Source: Pseudothauera rhizosphaerae (lineage in GTDB: Bacteria; Pseudomonadota; Gammaproteobacteria; Burkholderiales; Rhodocyclaceae). From it: a stretch of 64,000 nucleotides of DNA. The stretch spans positions 1 to 64,000 of the forward strand of contig NZ_SSOD01000004.1 in the NCBI RefSeq assembly GCF_004801305.1, in the 5' to 3' direction. Within the stretch, counting starts at the first letter, position 1; each line of letters begins with the position of its first letter. Below the pieces are notes generated by a model. The model had not been told where the DNA came from, searched no databases, and saw nothing but the letters and a program-made list of their open reading frames with translations. Position numbers and translations under genes: made by a program. Of this stretch, positions 8,147 to 61,442 are shown piece by piece.

Positions 8147-8180
8147 TGCCGCATCGGCGCCATGCGCGCCCCGATGCACG

Positions 8181-8206: not shown

Positions 8207-8219
8207 TTGCGCAGCGCGG

Positions 8220-8225: not shown

Positions 8226-8274
8226 TCCGCACCATGAGAGTGCGGGAAAACCGCCGCCGAGGAGATGACCGAAA

Positions 8275-44160: not shown

Positions 44161-44180
44161 CGCCGGCCGGCGTTTCCCAC

Positions 44181-44206
44181 ATCCCGCGCGGCCGGCCGCG
44201 CGGGAT
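44181..44206. terminator. Palindromic terminator between metZ and the polyene operon
   Basis: A perfect 26-base palindrome (ATCCCGCGCGGCC and its complement) lies between two converging transcripts. There is no T run, so termination may need Rho. Confidence 0.55.
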
Positions 44207-44634
44207 TACTGGCGGGCGAATTCGAGGGTGAAGTCGCTCACCAGGGTCTTCACCCACTTGTTGTACGACGGATGGATCAGCGGGCGCTCCGGGTCGTCGG
44301 GGTTGGGCGCGTAGCCGAGAACGGCGCTGTCGCGGTAGACGATGTCGTACTGCCTGCCGTCGATGCGGATGGTCACGTCCAGCGTGTGCTTGCGGATCGG
44401 CAGGTGGGCGTTCAGCGTGCCATCGGCGTTGCGCGTGATCTTCCAGCCGCGCGCGGCGCCGGCGCGCGTCATGGCCTGTTCGGCTTCTACTGCCGAGAGC
44501 GGTTTGCCGCTGGTGGTTTCGATCGGATTGCCGAGGAAGAGCTCCATCGGCTGGGACGGGCGGGCGGCATGGGCGGCCGTGCCTATCGTGAGCGTGGCGG
44601 CCAGGGCCATGAGAATTCGCAACCAGTTTTTCAT
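44206..44634 (-). CDS. Secreted protein of unknown function, end of the polyene operon
   Basis: A 142-residue protein with a signal peptide (cleavage near AAHAA, residue 23) and a mature part with no family I can name. It contains ETTSGKPLSAVEAEQAMTRA and a beta-rich segment TVRIDGRQYDIVYRDSAVL (first residues as TIRIDGRQ). AGGAG lies nine bases before the ATG. It is the last gene of the minus-strand aryl-polyene series, 34 bases after another secreted protein, so both may serve pigment placement in the envelope. That role is inference from position. Confidence 0.65.
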   Translation of the reverse strand: MKNWLRILMALAATLTIGTAAHAARPSQPMELFLGNPIETTSGKPLSAVEAEQAMTRAGAARGWKITRNADGTLNAHLPIRKHTLDVTIRIDGRQYDIVYRDSAVLGYAPNPDDPERPLIHPSYNKWVKTLVSDFTLEFARQ

Positions 44635-44668
44635 GCTGTCGATCTCCTGATGCGTGGGGGGAAAGGGG

Positions 44669-45124
44669 TCACTTGCCGATGCGGGCGAGATCGCCGCGCA
44701 GCGCGACGCCGGCCATGAGAGCGCCGACGTGGCATTCGAAGTCCGTCGTGCTCTTGTACTCGTTCTTGCGGAAGTAGCTGACGATGTTGGTCACGGCGTT
44801 GGCGCCGGCATTGCGCGCCGCATCCTGCAACTGGATGAGCGCGGACTGGGCGGTCCAGATGCACGCCTGTTCGTGGTCCTTGGCGAAGGCGTTGCTCTTC
44901 TTGTTGGTGAGCGCGCTGGCCTTCAGGACTTTGCCCTTGGGGCCGGTGCCGGCCAGGTAGAACTTGACGCTGCCGTCGAGCTTGCCGGACGCGGTGGCGG
45001 CGTCGATGGCCTTCTGCAGCGGAACGTGGATGACGTCGTCGGCGGCAAGGGCGGTGCCGCTAGCGGCCAGGGCCAGGGCGGCGGAGGCGCCCAGGTGGGC
45101 GAGTCGAACGCGGATCGTAGGCAC
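44669..45124 (-). CDS. Secreted protein of unknown function, next to last in the polyene operon
   Basis: A 151-residue periplasmic protein with a signal peptide ending near GTALAADD. The C-terminal half has an ALIQLQDAARNAGANAV stretch of the kind seen in small periplasmic YbjQ/RcsF-like domains, and two cysteines (QACIWT and DFECHV) that could form a disulfide. It starts at GTG with a perfect AAGGAG eight bases upstream. The function is not known. Confidence 0.65.
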   Translation of the reverse strand: MPTIRVRLAHLGASAALALAASGTALAADDVIHVPLQKAIDAATASGKLDGSVKFYLAGTGPKGKVLKASALTNKKSNAFAKDHEQACIWTAQSALIQLQDAARNAGANAVTNIVSYFRKNEYKSTTDFECHVGALMAGVALRGDLARIGK

Positions 45125-45179
45125 GGGTGATTCTCCTTGTTGTCGGTGGAACGATGCAGAGGCGAAAAACGGAGCCGGC

Positions 45180-46406
45180 CTAGGGCCAGCGCCGGAAGAT
45201 CAGCGAGGTGTTGAGGCCGCCGAAGGCGAAGTTGTTGTTCATGACGTACTCGTGCTCGGCCCGGCGTGCCCGGCCGGTGATGTAGTCGAGTTCGCCGCAG
45301 CGCGGGTCGATCTCGGTCAGGTTCAACGTGGGGGCGAAGCGGCCGTTCCTGAGCATCTCGATGCTGAACCAGGATTCCAGTGCACCGCAGGCGCCCAGGG
45401 TGTGGCCCAGGTAGCTCTTCTGCGAGCTGATCATCACGCGCGGGCCGAACACAGCATGGGTGGCCTGGGTTTCGGCGATGTCGCCGTGCTCGGTGGCGGT
45501 GCCGTGGCCGTTGATGTAGCCGATCGCGTCGGGGGGCAGGCCGGCGTCGGCCAGTGCCTGTTCCATGGCGATGCGCATCGTGGCGGCTTCCGGGCGGGTG
45601 ACGTGGGTGCCGTCCGAATTGCTGCCGAAGCCGACGATCTCGGCGTGGATGCGCACGCCGCGCGCCTGGGCGTGGGACAGCGACTCCAGCACCAGCATGC
45701 CTGCGCCTTCACCGATGACCAGGCCGTCGCGGGCGCTGTCGTAGGGCCGCGGCGAGAGTTCGGGTGTGTCGTTCTTCTGGCTGGTGGCGTACAGGGCGTC
45801 GAATACGATGGCCTCGCTGGCGCACAGTTCCTCGGCGCCGCCGGCCAGCATCAGGGCCTGGCGGCCGTAGCGGATGGACTCGAAAGCATAGCCGATGCCC
45901 TGGCTGCCCGAGGTGCAGGCGCTGGAGGTGGGAATGACGCGGCCCTTGAGGCCGAAGAAGATGCCGATGTTGGCCGCCGTGGTGTGCGGCATCATGCGCA
46001 CGTAGGAGTTGGCGTTGAGGTTGTCGGTGACGCCGTTGAGCAGCATGTTGCCGAAGGCGCGGATCTCCGCCGTGCTGCCGGTGGACGAGCCGCAGGCCAC
46101 GCCCATGCGGCCGTCGGCGATGGCCGGGTCGTTCAGCAGGCCGGCGTCGGCCAGGGCACGCTCGGCCGCGTAGACGGCGAGCTGCGACACCCGCCCCATG
46201 CTGCGCAACTGCTTGCGGGTCCAGTGGTCGGGCACCTCGAAGGCGGGCAGCGGTGCGCCCAGGCGGGTGTTGAGGTCGGCATAGCGGTCCCATTCGGGCA
46301 TCACGCGCACGGCGCTGCGGCCGGCGTCGAAGGCCGCCTCGATCCGGGCCCATTCATCGCCCAGCGCGCTGATGCCGGCCATGCCGGTGACGACGACGCG
46401 TTCCAT
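45180..46406 (-). CDS. apeR: Aryl polyene beta-ketoacyl-ACP synthase (ApeR-type)
   Basis: A 408-residue FabF-like ketosynthase with a complete Cys-His-His triad: Cys164 in SSACTSGSQG, His301 in NGHGTATEHGD and His335 in LGHTLGA. It condenses malonyl units in aryl-polyene synthesis. It is the fourth gene of a KS-DH-KR-KS block in the same order as apeO-apeP-apeQ-apeR of the E. coli cluster, and it overlaps the ketoreductase by one base. The name is assigned from this order. Confidence 0.88.
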   Translation of the reverse strand: MERVVVTGMAGISALGDEWARIEAAFDAGRSAVRVMPEWDRYADLNTRLGAPLPAFEVPDHWTRKQLRSMGRVSQLAVYAAERALADAGLLNDPAIADGRMGVACGSSTGSTAEIRAFGNMLLNGVTDNLNANSYVRMMPHTTAANIGIFFGLKGRVIPTSSACTSGSQGIGYAFESIRYGRQALMLAGGAEELCASEAIVFDALYATSQKNDTPELSPRPYDSARDGLVIGEGAGMLVLESLSHAQARGVRIHAEIVGFGSNSDGTHVTRPEAATMRIAMEQALADAGLPPDAIGYINGHGTATEHGDIAETQATHAVFGPRVMISSQKSYLGHTLGACGALESWFSIEMLRNGRFAPTLNLTEIDPRCGELDYITGRARRAEHEYVMNNNFAFGGLNTSLIFRRWP

Positions 46407-47137
46407 CAGCACAGCCCTCCGTTGACGGCCAGCACCTGGCGGGTGATGTAGGCCGCGCCCGGCGACATCAGGAACACCACCGCGGCGGCGACCTCCTCGG
46501 GCGTGCCCATGCGCTGGGCAGGCACGGCCTTGAGGATTTCTTCCACGGGTACGTTCTCGTCGATCATGTCCGTGTCGATGAGGCCGGGGGCCACGCAATT
46601 GACGGTGATCCGGCGCTTGGCCAGTTCCACCGCCAGCGCCTTGGCGGCGCCGATCAGGCCGGCCTTGGAGGCGCTGTAATTGACCTGGCCGCGGTTGCCG
46701 GTGAGGCCCGATACCGAGGCCATGCAGACGATGCGTCCGTCCGTGCGGCGGCGGATCATGGGCATCACCACCGGGTGCAGCACGTTGTAGAAGCCGTCGA
46801 GGTTGGTGCGCAGCACCTGGTCCCAGTCGTCGTCCGACAGGGCCGGGAAGGCGCCGTCGCGCGTCAGGCCGGCGTTGAGCACCACGCCGTAGTAGGCGCC
46901 GTGGGCGTCGATGTCGGCGAGCAGCGCGGCGCGCGCGGCATTGCGGTCGCCGACGTCGAACTGCAGCACGCGGGCGTCGCGGCCCAGTTCGCGCACGGCC
47001 TGGGCCACGGCCTCGGCCTCTTCGGCCTTGCTGCGGCAGTGGATGACGAGATCGTGGCCCGCCTGCGCGAGGGCGAGAGCGATGGCGCGGCCGATGCCGC
47101 GGCTGGAACCGGTGACGAGGATGGACGAACTGTTCAT
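46406..47137 (-). CDS. apeQ: Aryl polyene 3-ketoacyl-ACP reductase (ApeQ-type)
   Basis: A 243-residue FabG-like short-chain dehydrogenase with the NADPH loop TGSSRGIG, NAGLTRDGAF, the catalytic serine in MASVSGLTG and NYSASKAG. It reduces the beta-keto group after each elongation. I took the ATG at 47137, which overlaps the preceding dehydratase stop (ATGA). Confidence 0.9.
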   Translation of the reverse strand: MNSSSILVTGSSRGIGRAIALALAQAGHDLVIHCRSKAEEAEAVAQAVRELGRDARVLQFDVGDRNAARAALLADIDAHGAYYGVVLNAGLTRDGAFPALSDDDWDQVLRTNLDGFYNVLHPVVMPMIRRRTDGRIVCMASVSGLTGNRGQVNYSASKAGLIGAAKALAVELAKRRITVNCVAPGLIDTDMIDENVPVEEILKAVPAQRMGTPEEVAAAVVFLMSPGAAYITRQVLAVNGGLC

Positions 47138-47601
47138 GTGGATCGAGGTGGTTGGGACTCTTGGACGAAGGAATTCACATCGCGGGGGCTGAAGACGTTG
47201 AGCCTGGCCTGGGCGAGCGTGGCGCCCGCGCCGAGGAGGCGGCATTCGAACATGCCCATGCCGGTCGCATCGTGCAGGGAGCGGCTCACGTCCACCAGCA
47301 GTTCGGTGCCGGCCGCGAAGGCCGGCACGTGGCATTCGTAGTTGCGCGTGCCGAGCAGGAAGCCCAGTTCCACCGGCCGGCCGGCGGCGCGGGCATGGCA
47401 GCCGGCCCAGGCCGCCACTGCCTGGGCCATGATCTCCAGGCCCATCCAGTTGGGCAGGCTGCCGTCGGGCTCGCTGAACAGGCCGTCCGCCCGCACCGTG
47501 GCGCGGGCCTGCAGCGTGTCGGTATCGAAGGCGAGCACATGGTCGAGAAGCACCATGTCGCCCGCGTGGGGGATGAGGTCGGTGACGGGCCAGGGGATCA
47601 T
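47134..47601 (-). CDS. apeP: Aryl polyene dehydratase subunit (ApeP-type)
   Basis: A 155-residue hotdog-fold protein. The central helix NWMGLEIMAQAVAAW resembles the FabZ helix that carries the catalytic acid (Glu in GLE). The FabZ-type GHFP histidine motif is absent; only LIPHAGDMVLLD is seen. The His motif is found instead in the hotdog domain fused to the adenylation enzyme of this cluster, suggesting that the two make a mixed active site. It overlaps both neighbours by ATGA. Confidence 0.82.
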   Translation of the reverse strand: MIPWPVTDLIPHAGDMVLLDHVLAFDTDTLQARATVRADGLFSEPDGSLPNWMGLEIMAQAVAAWAGCHARAAGRPVELGFLLGTRNYECHVPAFAAGTELLVDVSRSLHDATGMGMFECRLLGAGATLAQARLNVFSPRDVNSFVQESQPPRST

Positions 47602-48809
47602 GCGTGCGTTCCCAGGATGAGGCTGGCGTTGTTGCCGCCGAAGGCGAAGGAATTGCTCATGGCAATGCGCGGCCGGCCGGCGGCGAAGGACTGCGCGCCG
47701 GTGCAGAAATCCAGCGCGGGCAGGGCGGGGTCGGGCACGCCGTCCCAGACGTGGGTAGGCAGGCGGCCGTCCGTATTGGCGGGTGACAGGGCCATCCAGC
47801 ACAGCGCCGCTTCCAGGGCGCCGGCCGCGCCCAGGGCGTGGCCGGTGAGGCCCTTGGTGGAGGCGCAGGGCACGCCGGCGGGGAAGACGGCGTGCATGGC
47901 GTGGCTTTCCATGGCGTCGTTGAGTTCGGTGGCGGTGCCGTGCAGATTGACCCAGCCGATATCGGCAGCGTCCACTCCGGCGTCGGCCAGTGCCCCGAGC
48001 ATGGCCTGCCGCGCACCCGCACCGCTGGGGTCGGGGGCCGACATGTGCCAGGCGTCGGAACTGCCCGCGCCGCCCAGCAGGGCGATGCCGGCGGGGTCGG
48101 CAGGCGTGCGCTCCATGAGGAACAGCACGCCGGCTTCGCCGATGTTGATGCCACGCCGGTTGGCGGAGAAGGGCAGGCAGTGCGCGTCGGAGATCGCTTC
48201 GAGGGCGGCGAAGCCGTTGATGGTGAGACGGCACAGGGTGTCGGCACCGCCGCACACCACGGCGTCGCACAGGCCCAGATCGAGCAGGCGGCGCGCCGAC
48301 AGCAGGGCGCGGGCGCTGGACGTGCACGCCGTCGACAGCGTATAGGCGGGGCCGGTGGTGCCCAGCCAGGCGGCGAGGAACTCGGCCGGCGCGTTGAGGT
48401 ACTGGCGGCGGTAGTCGTAGTCCGCCGGCCAGTAGCCGTCCCGGGCCAGCGCGCCGAAGGCGGGGGCGTTGTCGTTGACGCCAGAAGTGCTGGTGCCCAG
48501 CACGATGGCCACACGGGCCGCGCCGTAGCGCTGCACCGCGGCGCGCAGGGGCGCCTCGATCTGCAGCGCGGCGGCGAGCAGAAGGCGGTTGTTGCGGCTG
48601 TGCAGGTGGGCGGGCAGTTCGGCGGGCAGGGCCGGCAGCGGCGTGCTCACGGCGCCCAGCGTGGGCATGCGGTCCATGATCCAGCCCGACAGGGGCGCGA
48701 GTCCGCCCGTATCGCCGGCCATCAGGCGCTCGCGCACCTGGGCCGTGCCGGCGCCCAGCGCGCAGATCACGCCGGGTTCAGCGAGCCAGCAGGGTCGGTT
48801 TGCAGCCAT
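47598..48809 (-). CDS. apeO: Aryl polyene beta-ketoacyl-ACP synthase (ApeO-type)
   Basis: A 403-residue ketosynthase with a complete triad: Cys162 in STACTSSARA, His290 in NLHGTATELND and His324 in GLTGHALGAAG. In E. coli, ApeO works with a chain-length-factor partner (ApeC); a matching short CLF-like gene heads this operon. I used the ATG at 48809, which overlaps the previous stop; a GTG three bases earlier is also possible. Confidence 0.87.
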   Translation of the reverse strand: MAANRPCWLAEPGVICALGAGTAQVRERLMAGDTGGLAPLSGWIMDRMPTLGAVSTPLPALPAELPAHLHSRNNRLLLAAALQIEAPLRAAVQRYGAARVAIVLGTSTSGVNDNAPAFGALARDGYWPADYDYRRQYLNAPAEFLAAWLGTTGPAYTLSTACTSSARALLSARRLLDLGLCDAVVCGGADTLCRLTINGFAALEAISDAHCLPFSANRRGINIGEAGVLFLMERTPADPAGIALLGGAGSSDAWHMSAPDPSGAGARQAMLGALADAGVDAADIGWVNLHGTATELNDAMESHAMHAVFPAGVPCASTKGLTGHALGAAGALEAALCWMALSPANTDGRLPTHVWDGVPDPALPALDFCTGAQSFAAGRPRIAMSNSFAFGGNNASLILGTHA

Positions 48810-49327
48810 CACTGTGTCTCCAGGGGGGCGACGGTCCAGTGCGTGCCGTCGCCCAGCTCAAGCCGCAGGTGCATGCCGTCCGACCTGGCGGTGACCACCG
48901 GGCGGCCGTGGGCAGCCAGGGTGCGCACGCCGTCGCCGACGACGACGTTGGCCGCGCCGTAACGCGCCGCCAGCTCCGCCGCAGGCGTCCAGGCGAACAC
49001 CAGAGCGGAAAACAGCGTGCGCGCCGTGTCGTTGGGCGGCAGGAAGCCGTCGTTGCGCCAGTTCCCCGCGTGCAGTATCTGGCGCGCCTGCGGCGCTCCC
49101 AGCGGGTCGAACAGCGACCAGCGGGTGCCCTGCGCCTCGGCCTGTACCACCAGCACGCCATCCGCCGCCGGCCGTCCGGGCACGTGGTGGGTCACGTGCA
49201 GCATGCGTGGCAGGCTGAAGGCGGGGGTCTGGTCCGGTACCGGCACGGCGGTGGCGCAGCCGGCGAGCGCGCCGGCCAGGGCTAGCGTGGCCAGGCTGCG
49301 CTGCAGGGCGGGGGAGAGGGCTGGCAT
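48809..49327 (-). CDS. DUF3261-type lipoprotein
   Basis: A 172-residue lipoprotein with lipobox LAGC (Cys24) after a hydrophobic signal. The mature part is beta-rich (VLVVQAEAQGTRWSLFDPLG, PVVTARSDGMHLRLELGDG) and resembles the DUF3261 proteins found in aryl-polyene clusters. It probably sits on the inner face of the outer membrane and could assist lipid or pigment insertion with the LolA-like protein; this is inference. Confidence 0.7.
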   Translation of the reverse strand: MPALSPALQRSLATLALAGALAGCATAVPVPDQTPAFSLPRMLHVTHHVPGRPAADGVLVVQAEAQGTRWSLFDPLGAPQARQILHAGNWRNDGFLPPNDTARTLFSALVFAWTPAAELAARYGAANVVVGDGVRTLAAHGRPVVTARSDGMHLRLELGDGTHWTVAPLETQ

Positions 49328-49337
49328 CACGGGGATC

Positions 49338-50588
49338 TCAAGCGGTGGCGGCGGCGCGTGCGGTGGAGCCGGCGCAGATCGAAGCCAGCGCCTGCAGGCG
49401 GCGTCCCGGCTCGGCCACATAAGGATTGTCGCGGTCCCAGGCATAGCCGGCCAGTACGGAGCTGATCATGCGGCGGATTTCGGGCTGGGCCTGTTCGTAG
49501 AACACCACGTCCTGGAAGCTGCCGTCGTACCAGCCGTTCACGTAGGCGCGGAAGGTCTCCACGCCTACCATCAGCGGGTCGGCGAAATCGGCCTGCCAGT
49601 CCACCGCTTCGCCGCGGAGCTGGCGGTGCAGCGCGTCGGCGGCGAGCTTGGAGGAGCGCAGGGCGATGGTCACGCCCGAGGAGAACACCGGGTCGAGGAA
49701 CTCCGAGGCGTTGCCGAGCAATGCGTAGCCGGGGCCGTACAGGGAGGTGACGCTGGCCGAATAACCGGTGATGGTGTTGGCCGGAGTGTCCCATTGGGCG
49801 TTCCCGAGCAGGCGGCGCAGGTTGGGGGCACCGTCGCACATATGGCGCAGCGTGTCCATGAGCGCTTCGCCGGGGGCGCCGAATTCCTCGACGCGGCCCA
49901 CCACGCCGATGGAACTGCGGCCGTTGGAGAAGGGGATCAGCCAGTACCAGATGCTGCGAATCTCGGGATGTACGCTGATGAGGATCTTTTCCCGGTCGAA
50001 GGCGGGATCGTCGATGCGGTCCTCGATGTGGGTGAACACCGCCTTGCGCGGCGGCAGCGCCGACGGTTGCTCCAGATCGCACAGGCGGGCCAGCACGCGG
50101 CCGTAGCCGCTGGCATCGAGGACGAAGCGGCAGCCGACGCGGCAGGTCGTGCCGTCGGCCGCGCGGATGTCGAGCACCGGTGTCTCACCGCCGAAATCGG
50201 CAGCGACGACTTCCTGTTCGTAGCGTATCTCCACGCCTTGGCGTTCGGCCTCATCGGCCAGCAGTTTGTCGAAGCGGGCCCGCTGCACCTGGAAGGTGGC
50301 GCCCGGGCCCGGCGAGAACTTGTCGCGGAAATCGAAGTGCGTGCTCGTGTCGCCGCAGGCGAAGGCGGCACCGTTCTTGATCTGGAATCCGGCGGCGCGC
50401 ACGGCGTCCATCATGCCGGCCTCCTCGATGAACTCCAGGCAATGGGCCAGCAGGCTCTCGCCGATGCAGAAGCGCGGAAAGCGTTCGCGTTCGAGCACCA
50501 GCACGTCGTGGCCCTGGCGCTTGAGCAGGGCGGCGGCCACCGCGCCGGAGGGGCCGGCGCCGATCACTACGACTTCACGGGTTTCCAT
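49338..50588 (-). CDS. FAD-dependent oxidoreductase with halogenase motifs
   Basis: A 416-residue flavoprotein. The N-terminal FAD motif GAGPSGAVAA is followed by RFCIGESLL. It also has the two marks of flavin-dependent halogenases: a lysine (K71) in GFQIKNGAAF and a WxWxIP motif (WYWLIP, residues 213-218). Halogenase-like proteins occur in xanthomonadin clusters, whose pigments are brominated. It overlaps the exporter by 14 bases. It could halogenate the aryl head or only reduce or hydroxylate; the sequence favours, but does not prove, halogenation. Confidence 0.72.
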   Translation of the reverse strand: METREVVVIGAGPSGAVAAALLKRQGHDVLVLERERFPRFCIGESLLAHCLEFIEEAGMMDAVRAAGFQIKNGAAFACGDTSTHFDFRDKFSPGPGATFQVQRARFDKLLADEAERQGVEIRYEQEVVAADFGGETPVLDIRAADGTTCRVGCRFVLDASGYGRVLARLCDLEQPSALPPRKAVFTHIEDRIDDPAFDREKILISVHPEIRSIWYWLIPFSNGRSSIGVVGRVEEFGAPGEALMDTLRHMCDGAPNLRRLLGNAQWDTPANTITGYSASVTSLYGPGYALLGNASEFLDPVFSSGVTIALRSSKLAADALHRQLRGEAVDWQADFADPLMVGVETFRAYVNGWYDGSFQDVVFYEQAQPEIRRMISSVLAGYAWDRDNPYVAEPGRRLQALASICAGSTARAAATA

Positions 50589-52974: not shown

Positions 52975-53545
52975 CGTCGCTGAGGGTGTCGTCGGCGCGG
53001 GCGCCTTCCATGCGCAGCACGGTGCGGTCGCCCTGGGTTTCGCGCAGTTCGATCCGCTGCACCAGGGCGCCGCCGCGGATTTCGATGTCGGTGAAGATCT
53101 GGCGCAGGATGGCCGAACTGGGGGTCATCACCATGCGCCAGTCGGCGGCGCTGCCTTCGAGGCGGAGGTCGAAGCTCTCCCCCAGCCCTTGCGTGTCGCC
53201 GGCCAGCAGGGCGAGGAAGAGGCCGTTGTCGCGGCTGCCGGCGTCTGCCGCCTGCCAGCTTCCGTCGGGCAGGCGGCGCGCGACCCCCTGCGGGGTGATG
53301 CGCAGGGTGTGGGCGAGGGGGGACTGCAATTGCCACAGCAGGCCGCGCCCGGCCACCAGCACGAACTCGCCGCGGGACACCAGCGGCTGGGGCAGGGCGC
53401 GCAGGTGCTTCTCCTGCACGAAGCTGCCGCGCACCACAGGCGCCGCGCCCAGTTGGGTGCGCAACTGGGCCAGGTCGAAGGCCCAGCCGGCGGCCGGCAG
53501 CAGGGCCGTCGCCAGCAGCGCGGCGCGCAGCAGGGGGCGCCTCAT
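52949..53545 (-). CDS. LolA-like outer membrane lipoprotein carrier (ApeL-type)
   Basis: A 198-residue periplasmic protein with a signal peptide ending near AAGWA. The mature domain has the LolA pattern: RGSFVQEKHLRALPQPLVS, then GEFVLVAGRGLLWQLQSP. It is a cluster-specific paralogue rather than housekeeping LolA, to judge by its place between a thioesterase and the MMPL exporter. It may ferry the pigment-lipid across the periplasm. Confidence 0.82.
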   Translation of the reverse strand: MRRPLLRAALLATALLPAAGWAFDLAQLRTQLGAAPVVRGSFVQEKHLRALPQPLVSRGEFVLVAGRGLLWQLQSPLAHTLRITPQGVARRLPDGSWQAADAGSRDNGLFLALLAGDTQGLGESFDLRLEGSAADWRMVMTPSSAILRQIFTDIEIRGGALVQRIELRETQGDRTVLRMEGARADDTLSDDEQRAYTD

Positions 53546-53985
53546 CGCAGCGCCCCGAGTTCCGCGAGCCGGCGCTCGATGGCTATGCGCATGGCGGGGG
53601 GCGAGACGAGCTGCATCTCGCGGGTGGCGATGTCCACCGCCACCTGCACCGTGCTGGCGCGGGTCAGGCGCGTGCCGCTGGCGGCGTCGGTGATCAGGTA
53701 GTGGATCTTCAGGCGGCTTTCCCATTCCACCAGTTCGGCGCGCACCGTGAGATGCTGGCCGAACACGGCCGGCTGCACGTAGCGCAACTGCATGTCGATC
53801 ACGGGCCAAGCGTAGCCGGAGGCCAGCATGGCCGGATAGTCGTGTCCCAGTTCGGCCAGCAGCGCGCAGCGTGCCTGTTCCAGGTACTTGACGTAGTGGC
53901 CGTGCCAGACCACCTGCATCATGTCCACGTCGAAGAAGGGCACTTCGACGGCGATCTGCACGCTATGGACGCCGCGGCTGCGCAT
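53542..53985 (-). CDS. Acyl-CoA/ACP thioesterase, 4HBT family (ApeK-type)
   Basis: A 147-residue hotdog thioesterase with the active-site stretch DVDMMQVVWHGHYVKYLE (Asp21), typical of the YbgC/FadM group. It may release or edit acyl chains during polyene assembly. The ATG follows GGAGAGACG and lies inside the end of the acyltransferase gene. Confidence 0.82.
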   Translation of the reverse strand: MRSRGVHSVQIAVEVPFFDVDMMQVVWHGHYVKYLEQARCALLAELGHDYPAMLASGYAWPVIDMQLRYVQPAVFGQHLTVRAELVEWESRLKIHYLITDAASGTRLTRASTVQVAVDIATREMQLVSPPAMRIAIERRLAELGALR

Positions 53986-54919
53986 CGTCTCTCCAGAAAG
54001 GGTAGAAGTTGAACCATTGCAGCGGCGCGCCGGCGCAGGCCTGCGCCAGCCGGTCCGCATAGGCCTGGGCCCAGCGCGCGACCTCGCGCTCGCGGGTGCT
54101 GCGGGTCCAGCGCACGCCATCGGTCAGGCGCGCCAGTTCGATGCGGTAGCGTCCGTCCTGGCGGGTGCAGGTCAGCAGGTTGACCGGGCAGCCCAGCAAC
54201 CCCGCCAGCAGCCACGGGCCCTGGGGCAGCGGCGCGCGGGCGCCGAGGAAATCCACGTCCACCGTGCGCTCGCCCGTCAGCGGCACGCGGTCGCCGGCGA
54301 TGGCGATCCATTCGCCGCGGGCCTGCGCCTGCGCCAGTTCCAGCATGCGCGCTGCGTCCAGTTCGCTGACTTCGATGAGGCGCAGGTGCTCGGCGCCGGC
54401 CTCGCCGAGCAGGCGGTTGAAGGCCTGGGCGTGCTTGTTGTGTACGAGGACGTTGAGCGTGAGCTTCTGTTCGCGCTCGGCCAGCGCCCGGCAGATTTCG
54501 ATGTTGCCCAGGTGCGCGCCGACCAGAAGCTGGCCTGCGCCGCCGGCCATCTGGCGGTGCACGTCGTCGGGGTCGACGAGGTCCACGTCCGTCAGCCGGA
54601 TGCGGCCCTGCCAGGCGTCGAGCTTGTCGAGCAGGGCGGCGGCGAAGGCCAGGTACTGGCGGTAGACCGGCGCGCGGCGCGGCAGGGCGGCCTGCGGATA
54701 GGCCGCTGCCAGCCGCGCCTGGTAGCGCGCGATGCTGAGGCGCGCGCGCCGGCCGGTGAGGTAGAAGTACAGCACCACCAGCCACACCACCGGCGCCACG
54801 GCGCGCCGGCCGAGGTGGCGCGCGGCCCAGGCGGTAAGGCGCATCAGCAGCGGGCTGCCACGCTCGCGCTGGTCGGCCCAGTGGGTCGAATCGGAGGCGG
54901 AAACCATGCCGGGCTTCAT
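53963..54919 (-). CDS. LpxL/HtrB-like acyltransferase
   Basis: A 318-residue member of the lysophospholipid/lipid A acyltransferase family with one N-terminal membrane helix (VVWLVVLYFYLTG) and the catalytic motif HLGNIE (H136-x4-E141). It probably acylates the glycolipid part of the polyene. In some aryl-polyene clusters this domain is fused to a glycosyltransferase (ApeJ); here the two are separate genes overlapping by ATGA. Confidence 0.82.
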   Translation of the reverse strand: MKPGMVSASDSTHWADQRERGSPLLMRLTAWAARHLGRRAVAPVVWLVVLYFYLTGRRARLSIARYQARLAAAYPQAALPRRAPVYRQYLAFAAALLDKLDAWQGRIRLTDVDLVDPDDVHRQMAGGAGQLLVGAHLGNIEICRALAEREQKLTLNVLVHNKHAQAFNRLLGEAGAEHLRLIEVSELDAARMLELAQAQARGEWIAIAGDRVPLTGERTVDVDFLGARAPLPQGPWLLAGLLGCPVNLLTCTRQDGRYRIELARLTDGVRWTRSTREREVARWAQAYADRLAQACAGAPLQWFNFYPFWRDDAQPRRP

Positions 54920-55668
54920 GTTGGTCTCCCTCCAAGGCGTCTCACCAGCAGCCGGGGCGAGCGCAGCAGCATGCCGAAGAACAGACGCGCGTGCATGCGG
55001 CTGATGAGCAGGTTGTCCGCCAGGCCGCGGAAATGGGAGATGCCGCCTTCCGGGTAGCGCACCTGCGTGGGCAGCCAGCGCATGGGCACGCCGGCCCAGT
55101 GCAGGCGCACCAGCACGGCGATGTCGAAGTCCATGCGCGCGCCGCAGCCGGGCAGCACCGGCAGCACGCGGGCGAGGGGGTAGACGCGGAAGCCGCACAT
55201 GGCGTCGGGGATGTCCCGCGACAGGGTGTTGATCCACACCCATACGCGGGTCAGCCAGCGCCCGTACAGGCGCGCGCGCGGCACGTCGGCACCGTACACC
55301 GGCAGGCCGCCGATCAGCGCATCGGGATGGGCGCGGGAGGTCTGCAGCAGGCGCAGGGCGTCGGCCAGATCGTGCTGGCCGTCGGCGTCCACCTGCAACG
55401 CGTGGGTGTAGCCGGCCTGGGCGGCTGCGCGCAGGCCGTCCCGCACCGCGGCGCCCTTGCCGCCGTTGACGGCGCGGCGCACCAGGGTCACGCCGGGACC
55501 GGCGAGGGTGTCGAGCACGGCGGCGCAATCGGCGCGGGAGCCGTCGTCCACCAGCACGCAGGGCAGTTCCAGGGCGGCGAGCGCCGCCACCACCGCGCCC
55601 ACCGTGGCGCCGTGGTTGTACACCGGGATGACCGCGCAGGGCCTATGGGGCGGCGTGTTCATGGGCAT
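54916..55668 (-). CDS. Family 2 glycosyltransferase
   Basis: A 250-residue GT-A fold transferase with VIPVYNHGATVGAVVAAL, CVLVDDGSRAD and the metal-binding DADGQHD region, close to dolichyl-phosphate-mannose synthase-like proteins. It should attach a sugar in the lipid anchor of the polyene. The start is the GTG/ATG pair at 55668/55662; the gene overlaps the adenylation enzyme by 26 bases. Confidence 0.82.
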   Translation of the reverse strand: MPMNTPPHRPCAVIPVYNHGATVGAVVAALAALELPCVLVDDGSRADCAAVLDTLAGPGVTLVRRAVNGGKGAAVRDGLRAAAQAGYTHALQVDADGQHDLADALRLLQTSRAHPDALIGGLPVYGADVPRARLYGRWLTRVWVWINTLSRDIPDAMCGFRVYPLARVLPVLPGCGARMDFDIAVLVRLHWAGVPMRWLPTQVRYPEGGISHFRGLADNLLISRMHARLFFGMLLRSPRLLVRRLGGRPT

Positions 55669-57352
55669 GCACGATGCGGCCGGAGGAGCAGGGCTCGTCG
55701 GCCAGGCGATAGACGAAGCTGAGCTTGGCGCGCGCGGCGTCCCAGCGCAGGGTCAGGGTGGCGCGGTCGCCGGGGCGCATCAGGCGCTGGAACTTGAGGT
55801 TCTCGATGCCCCCGACGCGCAGTTCGGGGCGGATGTGGGCGCGCGCCACCTGCAGCGCCCAGCCGATCTGGGCCACGCCCGGCACCACGGGGGTGGCGGG
55901 GAAATGGCCGGAGAAGAACGCCAGGTCGGGCGGCACTTCGAATGCGGTCTGCCAACTGCCGTCTTCGAGCGCCACCGGCGCTTCGAACTGCGGCTGGCGC
56001 GGCCGCGGGCCGGCGAGCGCGGCGAACTGCTGCTGGTTGAGCTTGCCTTGCGCGTTCCACGGAATCTGGCGCAGCAGCCGCCACACGCGCGGAATGGCGA
56101 GGGGTTCGACGCGGCCGGCCAGATGCCTGCGCAGCGCGCCGATGAGCGCACGCCGGCCGCCGTTGCGCAGGGCGTGCAGGCCGCCGGCGGACAGGCCGAG
56201 CAGGGCGGCGAGGCGCGGCGTGCCAGCGCTCAGGCCCACGCGCGCCTCGGCCACGTAGGGATGCGCTTCCAGCGCGGCTTCCACGGTGGGCAGGCCGATG
56301 CGTTTTTCCTCCAGCTTGACCACGCGGTCCAGTCGCCCCAGCAGATGCAGGCCCTGCGGGCCCAGTTCGGCGGCATCGGCGGTCTGTTCGCGCGCGCCGG
56401 CGGTCCATGGCGAGGCCACCCACAGGGCGCCGGCCGCGTCCGTGCCGGCTTCGACGCCGTCGAACAACTGCCAGGCGCCGGCGCCCTGGCGCGTCGCCAC
56501 GATGCCGGTCTCGGTGCTGCCGTAGATCTCGGTGGGACGGCAGCCGCAGGCCGAGGCGATGTGGTCGGAGATGGCGGCGGGCAGGGGGCTGCCCGCCGTG
56601 TAGAGGGCGCGCAGCCGGCCGCACAGGCCGGCCCAGTCGATGCGCTCGCCGACGCGGCGCAGCAGCGCCGGGCTGGCGATCCACACGAAGCGCTCGTGGG
56701 CCAGGCTGGTGCGTTCCAGTTCTTCGGGGTAGTGGCGCTGGCGGCGGTCGATGGCGTGGCCGGCGCACAGGGGCCACAGCACGCGGAACGGCAGGCCGAA
56801 CATATGGTGCGCGCCCACGCTGCCCAGTACGCACAGGGCTTCGTCGGCGGGCCAGCGTGTTGCGAGCGTGCGCACTTCGCTGGCGAGCTGTTGCCAGCTC
56901 TTGCGGATCTGCTTGGGCCGGCCGCTCGAACCTGAGGTATAGAGCACGAGCCCCGCGGCCGCCTCGTCCAGCATGCCGGCGGCCAGCGGCGGCGCATCCA
57001 TCAATGCCTGCGGCGCGTGGGTGCGGCCGGCGGGCAGGGGCAGGTCGGTGTCGGTCAGCCACAGGTCCACGTCGGCATCGACGAGGGCGCAGGTGGGCGG
57101 GAGCACGTCGTTGGGAATCACCGCGACCACGCCGGCGCGCCAGCACGCCAGCAGTGCCGCGGCCAGTTCGGCGGCGTCGTCGAACCACAGCGCGGCACGC
57201 CGGGCGCCACGCGCCGCCAGGCCGCCGGCCAGGCCCAGGCTGCGGGCAACGAAGGCGGCATGGTCGAGCGCCGGGTCGCAGGCGACCGGGCGTTCGGCCG
57301 AAGGGGTGCGCAGCAGTTCGGTGGGGTCGATCCAGAGGGCGGGATGGGGCAT
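55643..57352 (-). CDS. Aryl-acid adenylation enzyme fused to a hotdog dehydratase domain (ApeH-ApeI fusion)
   Basis: A 569-residue fusion. Residues 1-450 are an adenylate-forming enzyme (P-loop LYTSGSSGRPKQIRKS, about 137-152; IYGSTETG; C-terminal lysine K437 in NAQGKLN), expected to load the aromatic starter, probably 4-hydroxybenzoate, onto an ACP. Residues 455-569 are a FabZ-like hotdog with GHFPATPVVPGV (His483). The Glu that follows PGV in FabZ is missing (GVAQIGW). E. coli has separate ApeH and ApeI proteins for these two roles. Confidence 0.82.
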   Translation of the reverse strand: MPHPALWIDPTELLRTPSAERPVACDPALDHAAFVARSLGLAGGLAARGARRAALWFDDAAELAAALLACWRAGVVAVIPNDVLPPTCALVDADVDLWLTDTDLPLPAGRTHAPQALMDAPPLAAGMLDEAAAGLVLYTSGSSGRPKQIRKSWQQLASEVRTLATRWPADEALCVLGSVGAHHMFGLPFRVLWPLCAGHAIDRRQRHYPEELERTSLAHERFVWIASPALLRRVGERIDWAGLCGRLRALYTAGSPLPAAISDHIASACGCRPTEIYGSTETGIVATRQGAGAWQLFDGVEAGTDAAGALWVASPWTAGAREQTADAAELGPQGLHLLGRLDRVVKLEEKRIGLPTVEAALEAHPYVAEARVGLSAGTPRLAALLGLSAGGLHALRNGGRRALIGALRRHLAGRVEPLAIPRVWRLLRQIPWNAQGKLNQQQFAALAGPRPRQPQFEAPVALEDGSWQTAFEVPPDLAFFSGHFPATPVVPGVAQIGWALQVARAHIRPELRVGGIENLKFQRLMRPGDRATLTLRWDAARAKLSFVYRLADEPCSSGRIVHAHEHAAP

Positions 57353-57366
57353 CGGGGATATTGCGG

Positions 57367-57915
57367 TCAGGCGCGCGCGGCAGCCGGGCGCAGCAGCCAT
57401 TCGCCGCCCAGCAGCAGGCCCATCAGGGCGTAGCTGGCGGCGCCGTTGTACCAGGTCCAGGCGCTCCAGGAACCCCACAGCGCGAGCGCGGCGGCGATGC
57501 CGCCATTGACGAGGAAGAAGCCGCACCACACCTCGGTGACGCGGCGCGTGTAGCGCACGCCGGCTTCCGGCAGGTCGGGGTGGCGCAGGCGGGCGAGGCG
57601 TTCGATGACGGGGCGGCCGTGCATCAGGCTGGCGCCGAACACGGCGAGCAGCAGGGCATTGACCATGACCGGATACCAGCGCAGCGCAGCCTGGGTGTCG
57701 GCCAGCGCGATGGCGGTGCAGAAGGCCAGCGCCAGGCCGGGCAGCCAGCGGCCGCCGAACTGGCCGGCCTCCGGGCGGCACAGGGCGCGCGTCAGCCACA
57801 GCGCGGCGGCGGCAGCGGCCAGCCAGCCCGGACGCACGTGCTCGAGGCTGAAATACACCGCGAACGGGTAGGCCACGCCCAGCAATGCGAGCGCCGCGCC
57901 CAGCGCGCGCTTCAT
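57367..57915 (-). CDS. COG4648-type membrane protein of aryl polyene clusters
   Basis: A 182-residue inner-membrane protein with five or six hydrophobic segments (ALGAALALLGVAYPFAVYF, GLALAFCTAIALAD, ALLLAVFGASL, GFFLVNGGIAAALAL, ALMGLLLGGEWLL). It lies between the ACP genes and the adenylation gene, a place where aryl-polyene clusters carry a small membrane protein. The role is unknown. I use the ATG at 57915, overlapping the ACP stop. Confidence 0.7.
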   Translation of the reverse strand: MKRALGAALALLGVAYPFAVYFSLEHVRPGWLAAAAAALWLTRALCRPEAGQFGGRWLPGLALAFCTAIALADTQAALRWYPVMVNALLLAVFGASLMHGRPVIERLARLRHPDLPEAGVRYTRRVTEVWCGFFLVNGGIAAALALWGSWSAWTWYNGAASYALMGLLLGGEWLLRPAAARA

Positions 57916-58166
57916 GGGGCGGAGCCGATCTTCTGCCACACGGCGTCCACGACGTCCTGCACGGTGCGTACCGCGCGGAAATCGTCGGCCGCCAGCTTGT
58001 GGCCGGTCTCGCGCTTGATGTGATCGATCAGGTCGATGGCGTCGATGCTGTCGATTTCCAGATCGGTGTAGAGATTGGCCGCGGGCGTGATGCGCTCGGG
58101 CTCCAGTTCGAAGAGTTCGATCAGCGCATCGCGCAACACGGCGAAAACGTCATCCCGGGTCTGCAT
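57912..58166 (-). CDS. apeF: Acyl carrier protein (ApeF-type)
   Basis: An 84-residue acyl carrier protein with the phosphopantetheine serine Ser40 in LEIDSIDAIDLI. The ATG at 58166 has GGGGAG about eight bases upstream; an earlier in-frame start at 58193 runs into the neighbouring gene. One of two ACPs in the operon. Confidence 0.88.
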   Translation of the reverse strand: MQTRDDVFAVLRDALIELFELEPERITPAANLYTDLEIDSIDAIDLIDHIKRETGHKLAADDFRAVRTVQDVVDAVWQKIGSAP

Positions 58167-58182
58167 GAGGGACTCCCCTGTG

Positions 58183-58443
58183 TCAGGCGGCACGCTGGGC
58201 GGCCACGAATTTGCTCAGGTTGGCGACCGTGGCGAAGTGGTCGCGCATGTTGCGGGTCTCCGGGTCGATGACCACGCCGTACTTCTTCTGCAGCGCCAGG
58301 CCGAGTTCCAGCGCGTCGACGGAGTCCAGGCCGAGGCCGTCGCCGAACAGGTTGGCATCGTTGTCGATGTCTTGCGGTGCAATGTCTTCCAGCCCCAGCG
58401 ACTCGATGATCAGGGCTTTGATTTCGTTTTCCAGTGCGGTCAT
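58183..58443 (-). CDS. apeE: Acyl carrier protein (ApeE-type)
   Basis: An 86-residue acyl carrier protein with Ser41 in GLGLDSVDALELGLALQ. It overlaps the acyltransferase gene by ATGA. The two ACPs differ clearly in sequence, so they probably carry different intermediates. Confidence 0.88.
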   Translation of the reverse strand: MTALENEIKALIIESLGLEDIAPQDIDNDANLFGDGLGLDSVDALELGLALQKKYGVVIDPETRNMRDHFATVANLSKFVAAQRAA

Positions 58444-59225
58444 TGTCTTGCGAGTTCCCTCTCGAAATATGCGTGCAGATGATCGTTCATCCTGCGCCCG
58501 GCTATGGGCAGCGGATGCCGCGAGGTCCAGTCGGCGGGATCGATGTCCTCGCCCACCTGGATGCTGTATTGCATCCGCCTCCTGGGTATGCGGTACCACG
58601 GTTCACCCTTGGTGAGGCTGCGCGGACTCATGCGGATGACCACCGGGGTGATGATGCGTGCGCCGCGCATGGCGATGGCGCAGGCGCCGCGGTGGAAGCG
58701 CGGCAGGCTGTCGCGCGGCGTCCGCGTGCCTTCGGGAAAGACGATCAGCGTATCGCCCTCGCGCAGCGCCGCTGCGGCCTGGTCGAGCATGTCCGTGCTC
58801 TCGTTGTTGCTGATGTAGCCGGCGGCGGTGATGGGGCCGCGCGTGAACACGTTTTCCACCAGGCCGTGCCTGACGATGCAGCTGGCACCCGCCACGTGGC
58901 CGATCAGGAACACCACGTCCAGCAGGGAGGGGTGATTGGCGATGATCATCTGGCCGGGCCGGCCGAGGCGCTCGGCTCCCCTGAAATCGACGGTCAGGAT
59001 GCCCACCCGCACCATGAAGCGGATGAAGCAGCGGAACGACCAGGTGATGGCGGCTCGCGACCGGCACCGGCGCAACGCGGCGTCGCCGCCCAGCAGCCGC
59101 ATGGGCGGGAACACGATGAAACGCAGCACCAGCCCCCCCAGGCCGAACAGGCTGAAGGCCATGCCGGTGGCGCACAGGCGCCAGAGCCATGCGTCCTGGC
59201 GCGGTTCGGAAAGCTCGGCACTCAT
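58440..59225 (-). CDS. PlsC-type acyltransferase (ApeD-type)
   Basis: A 261-residue 1-acylglycerol-3-phosphate acyltransferase-like protein with N-terminal hydrophobic helices, the motif NHPSLLD (H98-x4-D103) and FPEGTRT. It probably transfers the finished aryl-polyene acyl chain from the ACP to a lipid acceptor. It overlaps both neighbours by four bases. Confidence 0.83.
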   Translation of the reverse strand: MSAELSEPRQDAWLWRLCATGMAFSLFGLGGLVLRFIVFPPMRLLGGDAALRRCRSRAAITWSFRCFIRFMVRVGILTVDFRGAERLGRPGQMIIANHPSLLDVVFLIGHVAGASCIVRHGLVENVFTRGPITAAGYISNNESTDMLDQAAAALREGDTLIVFPEGTRTPRDSLPRFHRGACAIAMRGARIITPVVIRMSPRSLTKGEPWYRIPRRRMQYSIQVGEDIDPADWTSRHPLPIAGRRMNDHLHAYFERELARQ

Positions 59226-59962
59226 GCGCGGTGGCGGGTCCAGGTCCAGCGGCGGGCGGCACGGTCATGCCGCCAGGCGGGGGTCTCGTTGATGAGGTGG
59301 CGCAGCAGGTTCAGCGGATGGGGCCAGTCAGGCTCATCGTCCACCGCCGCTGCGGCGGGCGTGGCGTCCGGTTCGACGCGCCACTGGGGGGCATTGCCGA
59401 CGCGGAATGCCGCCGCATAGGAGAAGGGAACGTCGGTGATCCAGTGCGCATAGTCGGCGGGCGGGCGCTCTTCGGCCGCCACCACCAGGACGCGCGGCGA
59501 GTCGGCACGCAGCAGGGCGCAAGCTTCGATGAAGGCGTGTTCGAGCATGTCGGCCTCGCCCGCCAGGGCCACGCCTTCGGCGGTTTCCTTGCGGATGATG
59601 GACCACTGGCCGACGATGGCGTTGTGCACCGACAGGCCGAACGCGGTGGGCGAGAGCGGTTCGCCCGCGGCGAGCGTCTGCAGTTGTGCGAAGTTGCGAT
59701 TGGTTTCGCCATGGCGCGAGGCGAAGACGATGGGCATGGGGTCCAGCCCGTCCGCCAGCGGCCAGGCGCAGTCGAACACCATCCGGGCCAGCGGGCTCAG
59801 GCGGCGGCGTTGCAGGGGAGGCAGGAAAGAGGTACCGGGCAGATCGGCAGCGCTCGTCCGGCCGGCAGGGCAATAGGGGAAACGGGCCCAGTGGCGCCAG
59901 TTGTCTTCGTCATGCAAACCGGGTGCCCACGCCTGCCATTTCTCGATTGAGAACGTAAACAT
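59222..59962 (-). CDS. apeC: Ketosynthase-like chain length factor (ApeC-type)
   Basis: A 246-residue protein resembling the N-terminal half of a ketosynthase (MVFDCAWPLAD, IVFASRHGETNRNFAQL, PTAFGLSVHNAIVGQW). It has no ketosynthase active-site Cys at the SVHNA position (111-115), so it should be an inactive chain-length partner for the ApeO ketosynthase. It is the first gene of the operon; a TATAAT lies only eight bases before the ATG. Confidence 0.8.
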   Translation of the reverse strand: MFTFSIEKWQAWAPGLHDEDNWRHWARFPYCPAGRTSAADLPGTSFLPPLQRRRLSPLARMVFDCAWPLADGLDPMPIVFASRHGETNRNFAQLQTLAAGEPLSPTAFGLSVHNAIVGQWSIIRKETAEGVALAGEADMLEHAFIEACALLRADSPRVLVVAAEERPPADYAHWITDVPFSYAAAFRVGNAPQWRVEPDATPAAAAVDDEPDWPHPLNLLRHLINETPAWRHDRAARRWTWTRHRA

Positions 59963-59970
59963 GGCGTGCG

Positions 59971-59979
59971 ATTATAAAG
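59971..59979. promoter_or_regulatory. Overlapping divergent -10 elements between the polyene operon and the PPTase gene
   Basis: ATTATAAAG reads TATAAT on the minus strand (59976-59971) and TATAAA on the plus strand (59974-59979). The gap between the two starts is only 42 bases. The minus-strand hexamer ends eight bases before the operon ATG, which would make its message nearly leaderless. Confidence 0.5.
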
Positions 59980-60004
59980 AACATTTCAAGGAAGTAACCG
60001 GATT

Positions 60005-60700
60005 TTGCAGACCGTAGCCGAGGGTAATCACGATGCCGGCATCCGTATCGCCTTCGGCGGTCCGGAACTGGAAGCTGCGTACGATGTACAGGCATTGAGC
60101 CGGGCCGACAGGCTGCGCGCATCGATGCCGCGGGCGGCGCGCGCCGAGCGTGACTGGCGCGTGAGCCGGGCGCTGGCAGCATGGCTGCGCCGGCAGGCGG
60201 GCCTGGCGGCGGATGCGCCGGTCAGTCTGAGCCACAGCCGGGCGCATGCCCTGGCAGCCGATGCGCCGCAGGGATTTGCGCTGGGCGTGGATGTGGAGCT
60301 GTGCCGTCCGCGCGATGCGGGGGCGCTGGCGCAATGGGTGTGCACGCCGGCCGAGCGTGCCCTGCTCGATGGCGTGGCCGATGCGGCCGCGCGCCTGGAG
60401 TATTTCTACGTGCTGTGGACGCTGAAAGAGGCGCTGCTCAAGGCAGCCGGACTGGATTTCCCGGCCGGCATGGCGACGGTGGGGCTGCGCCCGGCCGGCG
60501 AGGGCTGCGCCGGCACGGTGCTGCGTGCGCCGCCGGGGGCATGGGAAGCGGCAGTGTGCGGCCTGCCGGACGGCTGGATCGCGGCGGTGGCCTGGCGCCT
60601 CCCACCCGGTTTGCCGCCGGCCGAGCCCGCCGCGAGGCTGCGCTGGCTTGTTCCGGCAACCGGGGTGCGGATGCTGGGTGCCTGGCGTGCGGGGGGATAG
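60005..60700 (+). CDS. 4'-phosphopantetheinyl transferase
   Basis: A 231-residue Sfp/AcpT-like transferase that activates carrier proteins with the CoA arm. It shows the magnesium-binding GVDVELC and the second motif WTLKEALLKAAG. It probably primes the two ACPs of the adjacent polyene operon. No ATG is suitable; the start is a TTG at 60005 with AAGGAAG upstream at a long distance. It is transcribed divergently from the operon. Confidence 0.88.
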   Translation: MQTVAEGNHDAGIRIAFGGPELEAAYDVQALSRADRLRASMPRAARAERDWRVSRALAAWLRRQAGLAADAPVSLSHSRAHALAADAPQGFALGVDVELCRPRDAGALAQWVCTPAERALLDGVADAAARLEYFYVLWTLKEALLKAAGLDFPAGMATVGLRPAGEGCAGTVLRAPPGAWEAAVCGLPDGWIAAVAWRLPPGLPPAEPAARLRWLVPATGVRMLGAWRAGG

Positions 60701-60716
60701 GGTGCTGCGTGCGGCA

Positions 60717-61442
60717 TCAGACGGCCAGTTCGCCCGTACGAAAGCACTCGCCGTCGAAGGCGAGATAGCGCGCCGTGGCGTGCCAGTCGGCGAGCACCCA
60801 GCGCTGGCACGCGTGGCCGTCTACCAGGTGTTCGTGGCAGGCCGGCCGATGGGTGTGGCCGTGGATCAGGGTGGGGTAGCCGTGCTCGCGCAGCAGGGCT
60901 TCGACCGCGGCACGGTTCACGTCCATGATCGCCATCGCCTTTTCCCGTTTGCCCACTTCGCTGCGCCGGCGCAGGTCCTCGATGAAGGCCTTGCGCTCGG
61001 CCAGCGGCCGGGCGAGGAAGGCGGCCTGCCAGGCGGGGTCGCGCACCTGGCGGCGGTAGGCCTGGTAGGGCAGGTCGTCGGTGCACAGGATGTCGCCGTG
61101 GCTCAGCAGCATGCGGGTCTTGCCCAGCACGAGCGGGAAGGGGTCGGGCAGCAGGGCCATGCCGGCCTGCGCGGCATAGGCTTCGCCGAGCAGGAAGTCC
61201 CGGTTGCCGGCCATGAAATGCACCGGGGTGCCGCCCTGCGCCAGCGCGCGCAGGGTGTCGGCGATCCGTCGGTTGAGCGGGGCGTCGCCATCGTCGTCGC
61301 CGGCCCAGTATTCGAACAGGTCGCCGAGGATGTAGAGCGCTTCCGCCTTGCGCGCAGGACCGGCCAGGAAGGCGAGGAGGGCGGCGGTGGCTTCGGGGCG
61401 TTCCTCGGCCAGATGCAGATCGGCGACGAACAGCGCCCGCAC
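60717..61442 (-). CDS. lpxH: UDP-2,3-diacylglucosamine diphosphatase LpxH
   Basis: The fourth step of lipid A synthesis: hydrolyses UDP-2,3-diacylglucosamine to lipid X. A 241-residue calcineurin-like metallophosphoesterase with FVADLHLAEERP (metal ligands), GDLFEYWAGDD, GNRDFLLGE, SHGD and HGHTHRP. The start is GTG at 61442, giving MRALFVADLHL; it lies 29 bases after ppiB. This ppiB-lpxH order is widespread in proteobacteria. Confidence 0.94.
   Translation of the reverse strand: MRALFVADLHLAEERPEATAALLAFLAGPARKAEALYILGDLFEYWAGDDDGDAPLNRRIADTLRALAQGGTPVHFMAGNRDFLLGEAYAAQAGMALLPDPFPLVLGKTRMLLSHGDILCTDDLPYQAYRRQVRDPAWQAAFLARPLAERKAFIEDLRRRSEVGKREKAMAIMDVNRAAVEALLREHGYPTLIHGHTHRPACHEHLVDGHACQRWVLADWHATARYLAFDGECFRTGELAV

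Follow-up and report, generated by a model that had tools for sequence, protein, structure and literature searches.

The 64,000 nucleotides of Pseudothauera rhizosphaerae DNA analyzed here (contig NZ_SSOD01000004.1, positions 1 to 64,000; the window) contain a complete aryl polyene (APE) operon of 19 minus-strand genes at 44206-59962 (15.76 kb, limits taken from reading frames) and, 42 nt from its first gene, a divergent gene for a 4'-phosphopantetheinyl transferase (PPTase). An operon of this kind, with its PPTase, had been proposed from the letters and reading frames of the window (the sequence-only reading), and searches with Pfam and NCBIfam profiles confirmed the core families (Table 1). 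We consider it very probable (roughly 0.88) that this complete APE operon was acquired horizontally and has the layout found in Achromobacter and Bordetella. The locus is ordinary in kind, belonging to a known APE type and predicted to make a yellow pigment of the membrane, with a halogenase-like gene as its one loose end.

Gene content and layout of the operon

As transcribed, the genes read ApeC, ApeD, two acyl carrier proteins (ACPs), ApeG-like, ApeH-ApeI, GT2 glycosyltransferase, LpxL-like acyltransferase, ApeK, ApeL, ApeM, flavin enzyme, ApeN-like, ApeO, ApeP, ApeQ, ApeR, "excinuclease"-like, and ApeA-like. Adjoining genes overlap or lie at most 55 nt apart, a spacing that suggests a single transcript for all 19. 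Promoter and terminator scans returned one promoter-like site before the PPTase gene and none for the operon, and they were not relied on.

Membership in the ApeEc type is indicated by the presence of an ApeO-ApeC pair, ApeR, ApeQ, ApeI/ApeP, ApeH, and two ACPs in one locus, together with the ApeK/L/M/N/G transport genes. The succession of ketosynthase (KS), dehydratase (DH), ketoreductase (KR), and second KS equals apeO-P-Q-R of the E. coli cluster, as had been recognized from the sequence. The functions listed by the sequence-only reading were all found, the MMPL exporter (ApeM) and the lipoprotein (ApeN) by weak family match and position, but two genes were absent from its list, the ApeA-like one and that for the flavin enzyme. 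Likewise, both of its DH parts exist, as ApeP and ApeI, but ApeI is fused to the ligase rather than separate.

Could the ketosynthases instead serve ordinary fatty acid synthesis? They fall within the FabF/FabB fold family, but ApeR scored above the cut-off of its own equivalog and below that of fabF, PF00109 scored much higher (211.9 bits) on a separate KS encoded on contig C8, and the partners expected of an APE system, a chain length factor (CLF), ApeP, and ApeI, are present. The domain searches led us to reject this reading, which we regard as barely conceivable. Cys-His-His motifs are present in ApeR and ApeO, and the expected motifs are also found in both ACPs, the ligase, and the dehydratases. 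The best solved-structure matches were 4ewg and 7f27 for ApeR, 6qsp_B and 7f28_A for ApeC, and 6qsr_B for ApeP; we take 7f27, 6qsp_B, 7f28_A, and 6qsr_B to be APE enzymes of Xenorhabdus and Acinetobacter. 4EWG is named an ApeR in PMC8358021.

Table 1. Features at the APE locus, with window coordinates and the basis of each assignment
Feature	Coordinates	Strand	Basis
Inserted block, operon + PPTase, about 16.5 kb	44161..60725	.	Flanks adjacent in relatives; GC contrast
metZ	ends 44160	+	Named by eye; flanks 3' end of operon
ApeA-like secreted protein	44206..44634	-	tblastn to E. coli ApeA, 24% identity, E 6e-10 (computed against 39 loci); no match in Pfam or NCBIfam
Small secreted protein, "excinuclease"-like	44669..45124	-	Label from neighbours' annotation
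ApeR, second ketosynthase	45180..46406	-	NF006587 equivalog 730.5 bits, above cut-off; fabF below cut-off
ApeQ, ketoreductase	46406..47137	-	TIGR01831 FabG2 381.6 bits, above cut-off
ApeP, dehydratase part	47134..47601	-	PF22817 ApeP-like 80.2 bits, above cut-off; PDB 6qsr_B
ApeO, main ketosynthase	47598..48812	-	NF006618 502.1 bits, above cut-off
ApeN-like lipoprotein	48809..49327	-	DUF3261 PF11659 weak, E 0.0065, below cut-off
Flavin-dependent halogenase-like enzyme	49338..50588	-	Between ApeM and ApeN
ApeM, MMPL/RND exporter	50575..52974	-	PF03176 20.0 bits, just below Pfam cut-off of 20.5
ApeL, LolA-like	52949..53545	-	PF19574 LolA_3 35.8 bits, above cut-off
ApeK, thioesterase	53542..53985	-	PF13279 4HBT_2 49.1 bits, above cut-off
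LpxL-like acyltransferase (corresponds to the ApeJ C-terminal half in E. coli)	53963..54919	-	PF03279 36.4 bits, above cut-off; match to ApeJ region of E. coli
GT2 glycosyltransferase (corresponds to the ApeJ N-terminal half in E. coli)	54916..55668	-	PF00535 58.1 bits, above cut-off; match to ApeJ region of E. coli
ApeH ligase fused to ApeI dehydratase	55643..57352	-	PF00501 76.9 bits and PF22818 ApeI-like 60.5 bits, both above cut-off
ApeG-like membrane protein, COG4648 type	57367..57939	-	Position; tblastn to E. coli ApeG, 56% over 63% of query; no Pfam/NCBIfam match
Acyl carrier protein	57912..58166	-	PF00550 47.6 bits; NF003757 116.4 bits, above cut-off
Acyl carrier protein	58183..58443	-	PF00550 41.5 bits; NF006617 88.8 bits, above cut-off
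ApeD, lysophospholipid acyltransferase type	58440..59225	-	PF01553 51.5 bits, above cut-off
ApeC, CLF, first operon gene	59222..59962	-	PF13723 Ketoacyl-synt_2 220.5 bits, above cut-off; PDB 6qsp_B, 7f28_A
PPTase, ACPS family	60005..60700	+	PF01648 51.1 bits, above cut-off
lpxH-like gene	beyond about 60720	-	Named by eye; flanks PPTase side

Related clusters and the arcuflavin type

The closest counterparts are six complete clusters from Achromobacter and from Bordetella sp. LUAb4 (L164-L169). Their gene order is that of the window, and they have matches to 18 of the 19 operon genes, among them the flavin gene but not the ApeA-like gene. In each of the six, a divergent PPTase gene precedes ApeC as it does in the window (45-56% identity over 67-82% of the query). 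As in the window operon, neither an ammonia lyase nor a methyltransferase was matched in them, and any unmatched stretches within their operons are shorter than 300 nt. They differ from it in sequence, with identities ranging from 41-58% (ApeN) up to 80-83% (ApeR). The "excinuclease"-like protein is 59-69% identical in Achromobacter/Bordetella and 40-51% identical to the genes annotated excinuclease 3' of ApeR in Pseudoalteromonas and A. baumannii.

The E. coli APE_Ec cluster (KE47 annotation; PMC8253772) has the ApeC-to-ApeR functions in an order identical to that of the window and shares with it an ApeA homologue and an adjoining PPTase, there of AcpT type. It differs in carrying the methyltransferase ApeB, in lacking a match to the flavin gene, and in its gene fusions: ApeH and ApeI are separate and ApeJ is one gene in E. 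coli, whereas the window has ApeH-ApeI fused and ApeJ split. The ApeH-ApeI fusion is described for A. baumannii in PMC8041823. The clusters of A. baumannii (L035) and Pseudoalteromonas (L034) follow the order of the window: ApeM and ApeN are separated by a flavin gene, and an "excinuclease" gene lies 3' of ApeR. A. baumannii has a PPTase as well. Unlike the window, both hold an aromatic amino acid ammonia lyase gene between the acyltransferase and thioesterase genes, which in the window overlap by 23 nt. Cupriavidus campinensis has a gene set almost identical to that of the window, again without the ammonia lyase.

The sequence-only reading had linked the operon to arcuflavins, the pigments of Azoarcus, and this link did not hold. 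In Azoarcus sp. BH72, arcuflavin genes occupy two unlinked loci of the xanthomonadin type and include a XanB2-type chorismatase and a methyltransferase, with dialkylresorcinol genes (darA/darB) separate from these (PMC3949708). Such a system would use a 3-hydroxybenzoate starter from the chorismatase and join the polyene to a dialkylresorcinol. Aryl polyenes are made by both types, and the arcuflavin clusters share KS, CLF-like, KR, DH, ligase, ACP, LolA, exporter, and glycosyltransferase functions with the window, with a halogenase gene listed too in PMC3949708, but their gene order is unlike that of the window.

The distribution of the two types was followed in six genomes of the genus. A query with ApeC recovered the window genome's own copy, its one CLF, and weak matches (28-33%) in three other species (G002, G004, and G005), where they sit in KS-CLF-DH-KR runs (L004, L003, and L002, respectively; also L172-L174), as in arcK-J-I-H. 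The chorismatase profile PF21168, searched at first in the window genome alone without a positive control and then repeated across the genus, scored above cut-off in the same three genomes, which served as positive controls, and below cut-off in G003; it had no match in the window genome or in G001. On the basis of these CLF and PF21168 matches, three of the six genomes are arcuflavin-like and one, that of the window, is of the APE type. With one CLF in an APE context, no chorismatase match, and one continuous operon in place of two loci, we rejected an arcuflavin-like system at this locus as very unlikely. P. rhizosphaerae provides a natural case in which one species holds a full APE block with its PPTase where the genus elsewhere carries xanthomonadin-type genes.

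Origin of the block

In all five other genus genomes, the match to the metZ end and the match to the sequence beyond the PPTase gene lie 73-92 bp apart. Because the flanking genes stand side by side in every relative, the operon and the PPTase gene represent a clean insertion of ~16.5 kb, the limits of which agree almost exactly with those drawn by the sequence-only reading, PPTase included. The GC (guanine plus cytosine) content of the operon is 71.1%, versus 67.3% and 67.6% in the window flanks. With the site unoccupied in every one of the five relatives, the insertion reveals which genes move jointly as a functional unit.

Sequence comparisons point to the source. They were drawn in part from the best 80 of at least 568 confirmed candidate loci, 7 of Achromobacter/Bordetella and 73 others (Pseudomonas and kin), and since these were picked by ApeR similarity, tallies over them are not representative of all APE clusters. 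ApeR was 80-83% identical in the 7 Achromobacter/Bordetella loci, 73-77% in the other 73, and 59-67% in the 12 genomes of its own family that matched at an E value of 1e-100 or better (120 searched besides its own). CLF identity was 61-66% in four Achromobacter genomes, 51-52% in a fifth Achromobacter and Bordetella, 49-54% in four Pseudomonas-like genomes, 39% in Cupriavidus, and at most 40% in its own family. In the ApeR and ApeQ trees, the window falls into a clade with Achromobacter, Bordetella, Ventosimonas, and Pseudomonas (100/100 and 100/99), outside of which the own-family sequences lie. The "own family" entries of the ApeO tree were disregarded because they came from loci with ApeR only and represent the wrong paralogue.

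The flanking metZ behaves like a native gene, with identities of 88-90% within the genus and of 82% and 77% in two family members (no match in G111). Outside the family, it reached 64% in Stutzerimonas, 45% in two Achromobacter genomes, and 35% in Bordetella, with no match in a third Achromobacter. The operon and PPTase seem to have come as a single block from an Achromobacter-like donor. We rejected vertical inheritance inside the genus, given the empty site in five of five relatives and an ApeR closer to that of Achromobacter/Bordetella than to that of the family. An insertion borne by a transposon was rejected as well: the block ends have no direct repeat longer than 7 nt, and none of the 20 genes is a mobility gene.

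The PPTase gene of the block is one of three PPTase-family genes in the genome. It lies within the inserted block, and six of six Achromobacter/Bordetella clusters have a PPTase gene in the corresponding position, which bears out the claim that it belongs to the operon. These two observations make the term "dedicated" well supported as a statement of ancestry, if not as a statement that the other two PPTases are unable to replace it.

Several points weigh against a horizontally acquired APE operon of Achromobacter/Bordetella layout. The pigment itself is a prediction from the gene content. No methyltransferase family matched any of the 20 genes of the block (Pfam, NCBIfam); without ApeB, the E. 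coli product is therefore not copied exactly. ApeB is not universal in APE clusters, being missing from the annotation of the A. baumannii cluster. The ApeA-like gene has no match in any of the seven Achromobacter/Bordetella loci, which suggests either a separate history for this gene or its loss from those genera; L053 and L067 are examples of Pseudomonas loci in which an ApeA-like match lies downstream of ApeR. Family scores for ApeM and ApeN are below or near cut-off. Same-position matches in the six complete clusters support both assignments, at 53-60% identity for ApeM and 41-58% for ApeN, the latter ranging from partial to full. Finally, the sister of the window within the Achromobacter/Pseudomonas clade is not settled by the ApeR and ApeQ trees, and the metZ contrast with Achromobacter is weak because those matches are probably not orthologues.

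Starter unit and the halogenase-like flavin enzyme

Family searches of the 20 genes agreed with the earlier observation that the operon encodes no methyltransferase, chorismate lyase, or ammonia lyase. The conclusion drawn from it, that the aryl head must come from elsewhere, stands in that the operon has no head-making gene, but no unusual source is needed because the genome encodes a UbiC-type chorismate lyase. The starter of the E. coli pathway is predicted to be 4-hydroxybenzoate from UbiC (PMC8253772), and Acinetobacter APE enzymes were assayed with 4-hydroxybenzoate (PMC8041823). Most likely, the aryl head here is 4-hydroxybenzoate supplied by the genome's own UbiC. An unmethylated head, which the sequence-only reading had also allowed for, is plausible given the enzymes that the operon lacks, and would then be a 4-hydroxyphenyl group.

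By analogy with published work on other APE clusters, the pathway may proceed as follows. The PPTase would arm both ACPs, and the ApeH domain would adenylate 4-hydroxybenzoate derived from UbiC and load it onto one of them. ApeO-ApeC, aided by ApeR, would then add conjugated C2 units together with ApeQ and the ApeI/ApeP dehydratase. The finished chain would be released or passed to a membrane lipid via ApeK, ApeD, the GT2 glycosyltransferase, and the LpxL-like acyltransferase, and ApeM/L/N/G would carry the lipid to the outer membrane. The predicted product is an unmethylated 4-hydroxyphenyl polyene lipid, the aryl head of which is probably modified by the flavin enzyme, perhaps by halogenation.

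Alternatively, the starter might be coumarate or cinnamate, with the flavin enzyme acting on it as an oxygenase or oxidase left over from a cluster of the ammonia lyase type. An ammonia lyase is encoded, mostly together with the same flavin gene, in 69 of the 73 Pseudomonas and other non-Alcaligenaceae loci (absent from L065 and L076; L054 and L070 could not be scored), and 3nix, the nearest solved structure to the flavin enzyme (42% identity), is a flavoprotein to which the resources consulted assign no reaction. However, no aromatic ammonia lyase matched in the window genome, the assembly of which is rated 99.9% complete, nor in any of the seven Achromobacter/Bordetella loci, and halogenase motifs occur in all 81 copies of the flavin enzyme. 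We therefore consider a coumarate or cinnamate starter improbable relative to 4-hydroxybenzoate. Among six APE clusters from other genera of the same family (L158-L163), ammonia lyase matches were found in L158, L160, L161, and L162 and a flavin gene match in L163.

The flavin gene is present in 75 of the 80 related loci, the five without it being among the 73 non-Alcaligenaceae loci. The enzyme has a halogenase fold along its whole length and carries GxGxxG, WxWxIP, and a conserved Lys (WYWLIP and FQIKNGA in the window copy), the last of which we take to be the catalytic Lys of halogenases; the WxWxIP and Lys motifs are those present in 81 of 81 copies. In a VIA-align structure comparison, halogenases ranked first, followed by aromatic hydroxylases, which tied with CmlS. 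The flavin halogenases of the carrier protein type, Mpy16, ChlB4, PltA, and Bmp2, are 23-27% identical to it.

We tentatively propose, while recognizing that the odds are against it, that the flavin enzyme halogenates the aryl head in an ACP-dependent manner. Many strains of Achromobacter, Pseudomonas, Acinetobacter, and Pseudoalteromonas would then have APE lipids that are brominated or chlorinated, as xanthomonadins are, perhaps only in the presence of halide. To our knowledge, the Xenorhabdus APE cluster has no flavin gene. A halogenated APE could have escaped notice because the well-studied clusters lack this gene (no match in E. coli). A probable halogenase near APE genes of Acetobacteraceae was already noted in PMC8776678, as were halogenase genes near xanthomonadin-type pairs in PMC3691225. 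The locus draws notice to this conserved gene in APE clusters.

Further copies and neighbours of the flavin gene came to light among the loci compared. A plasmid of Aureispira anguillae (Bacteroidota; L038, 10821-12074) carries a copy with 42-43% identity, near a trifunctional MMPL/acyltransferase/methyltransferase gene that hints at a flexirubin-like locus. Three Pseudomonas APE loci have extra genes (L048, 4700-5857; L055, about 3950-5084 and 6233-7054; L072, 6284-7012), by eye a cation antiporter and an S-adenosylmethionine methyltransferase beside the flavin gene; in L072, the methyltransferase-like gene is present without a flavin gene.

Elsewhere in the window, two similar adjoining minus-strand genes (61472-61966 and 62015-62575) appear by eye to encode peptidyl-prolyl isomerases, one with a signal peptide. 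At 4577-8874 on the plus strand, a run of genes resembles by eye a polyhydroxyalkanoate set, in which a synthase is joined by a tandem pair of reductases and a PhaR-like regulator.

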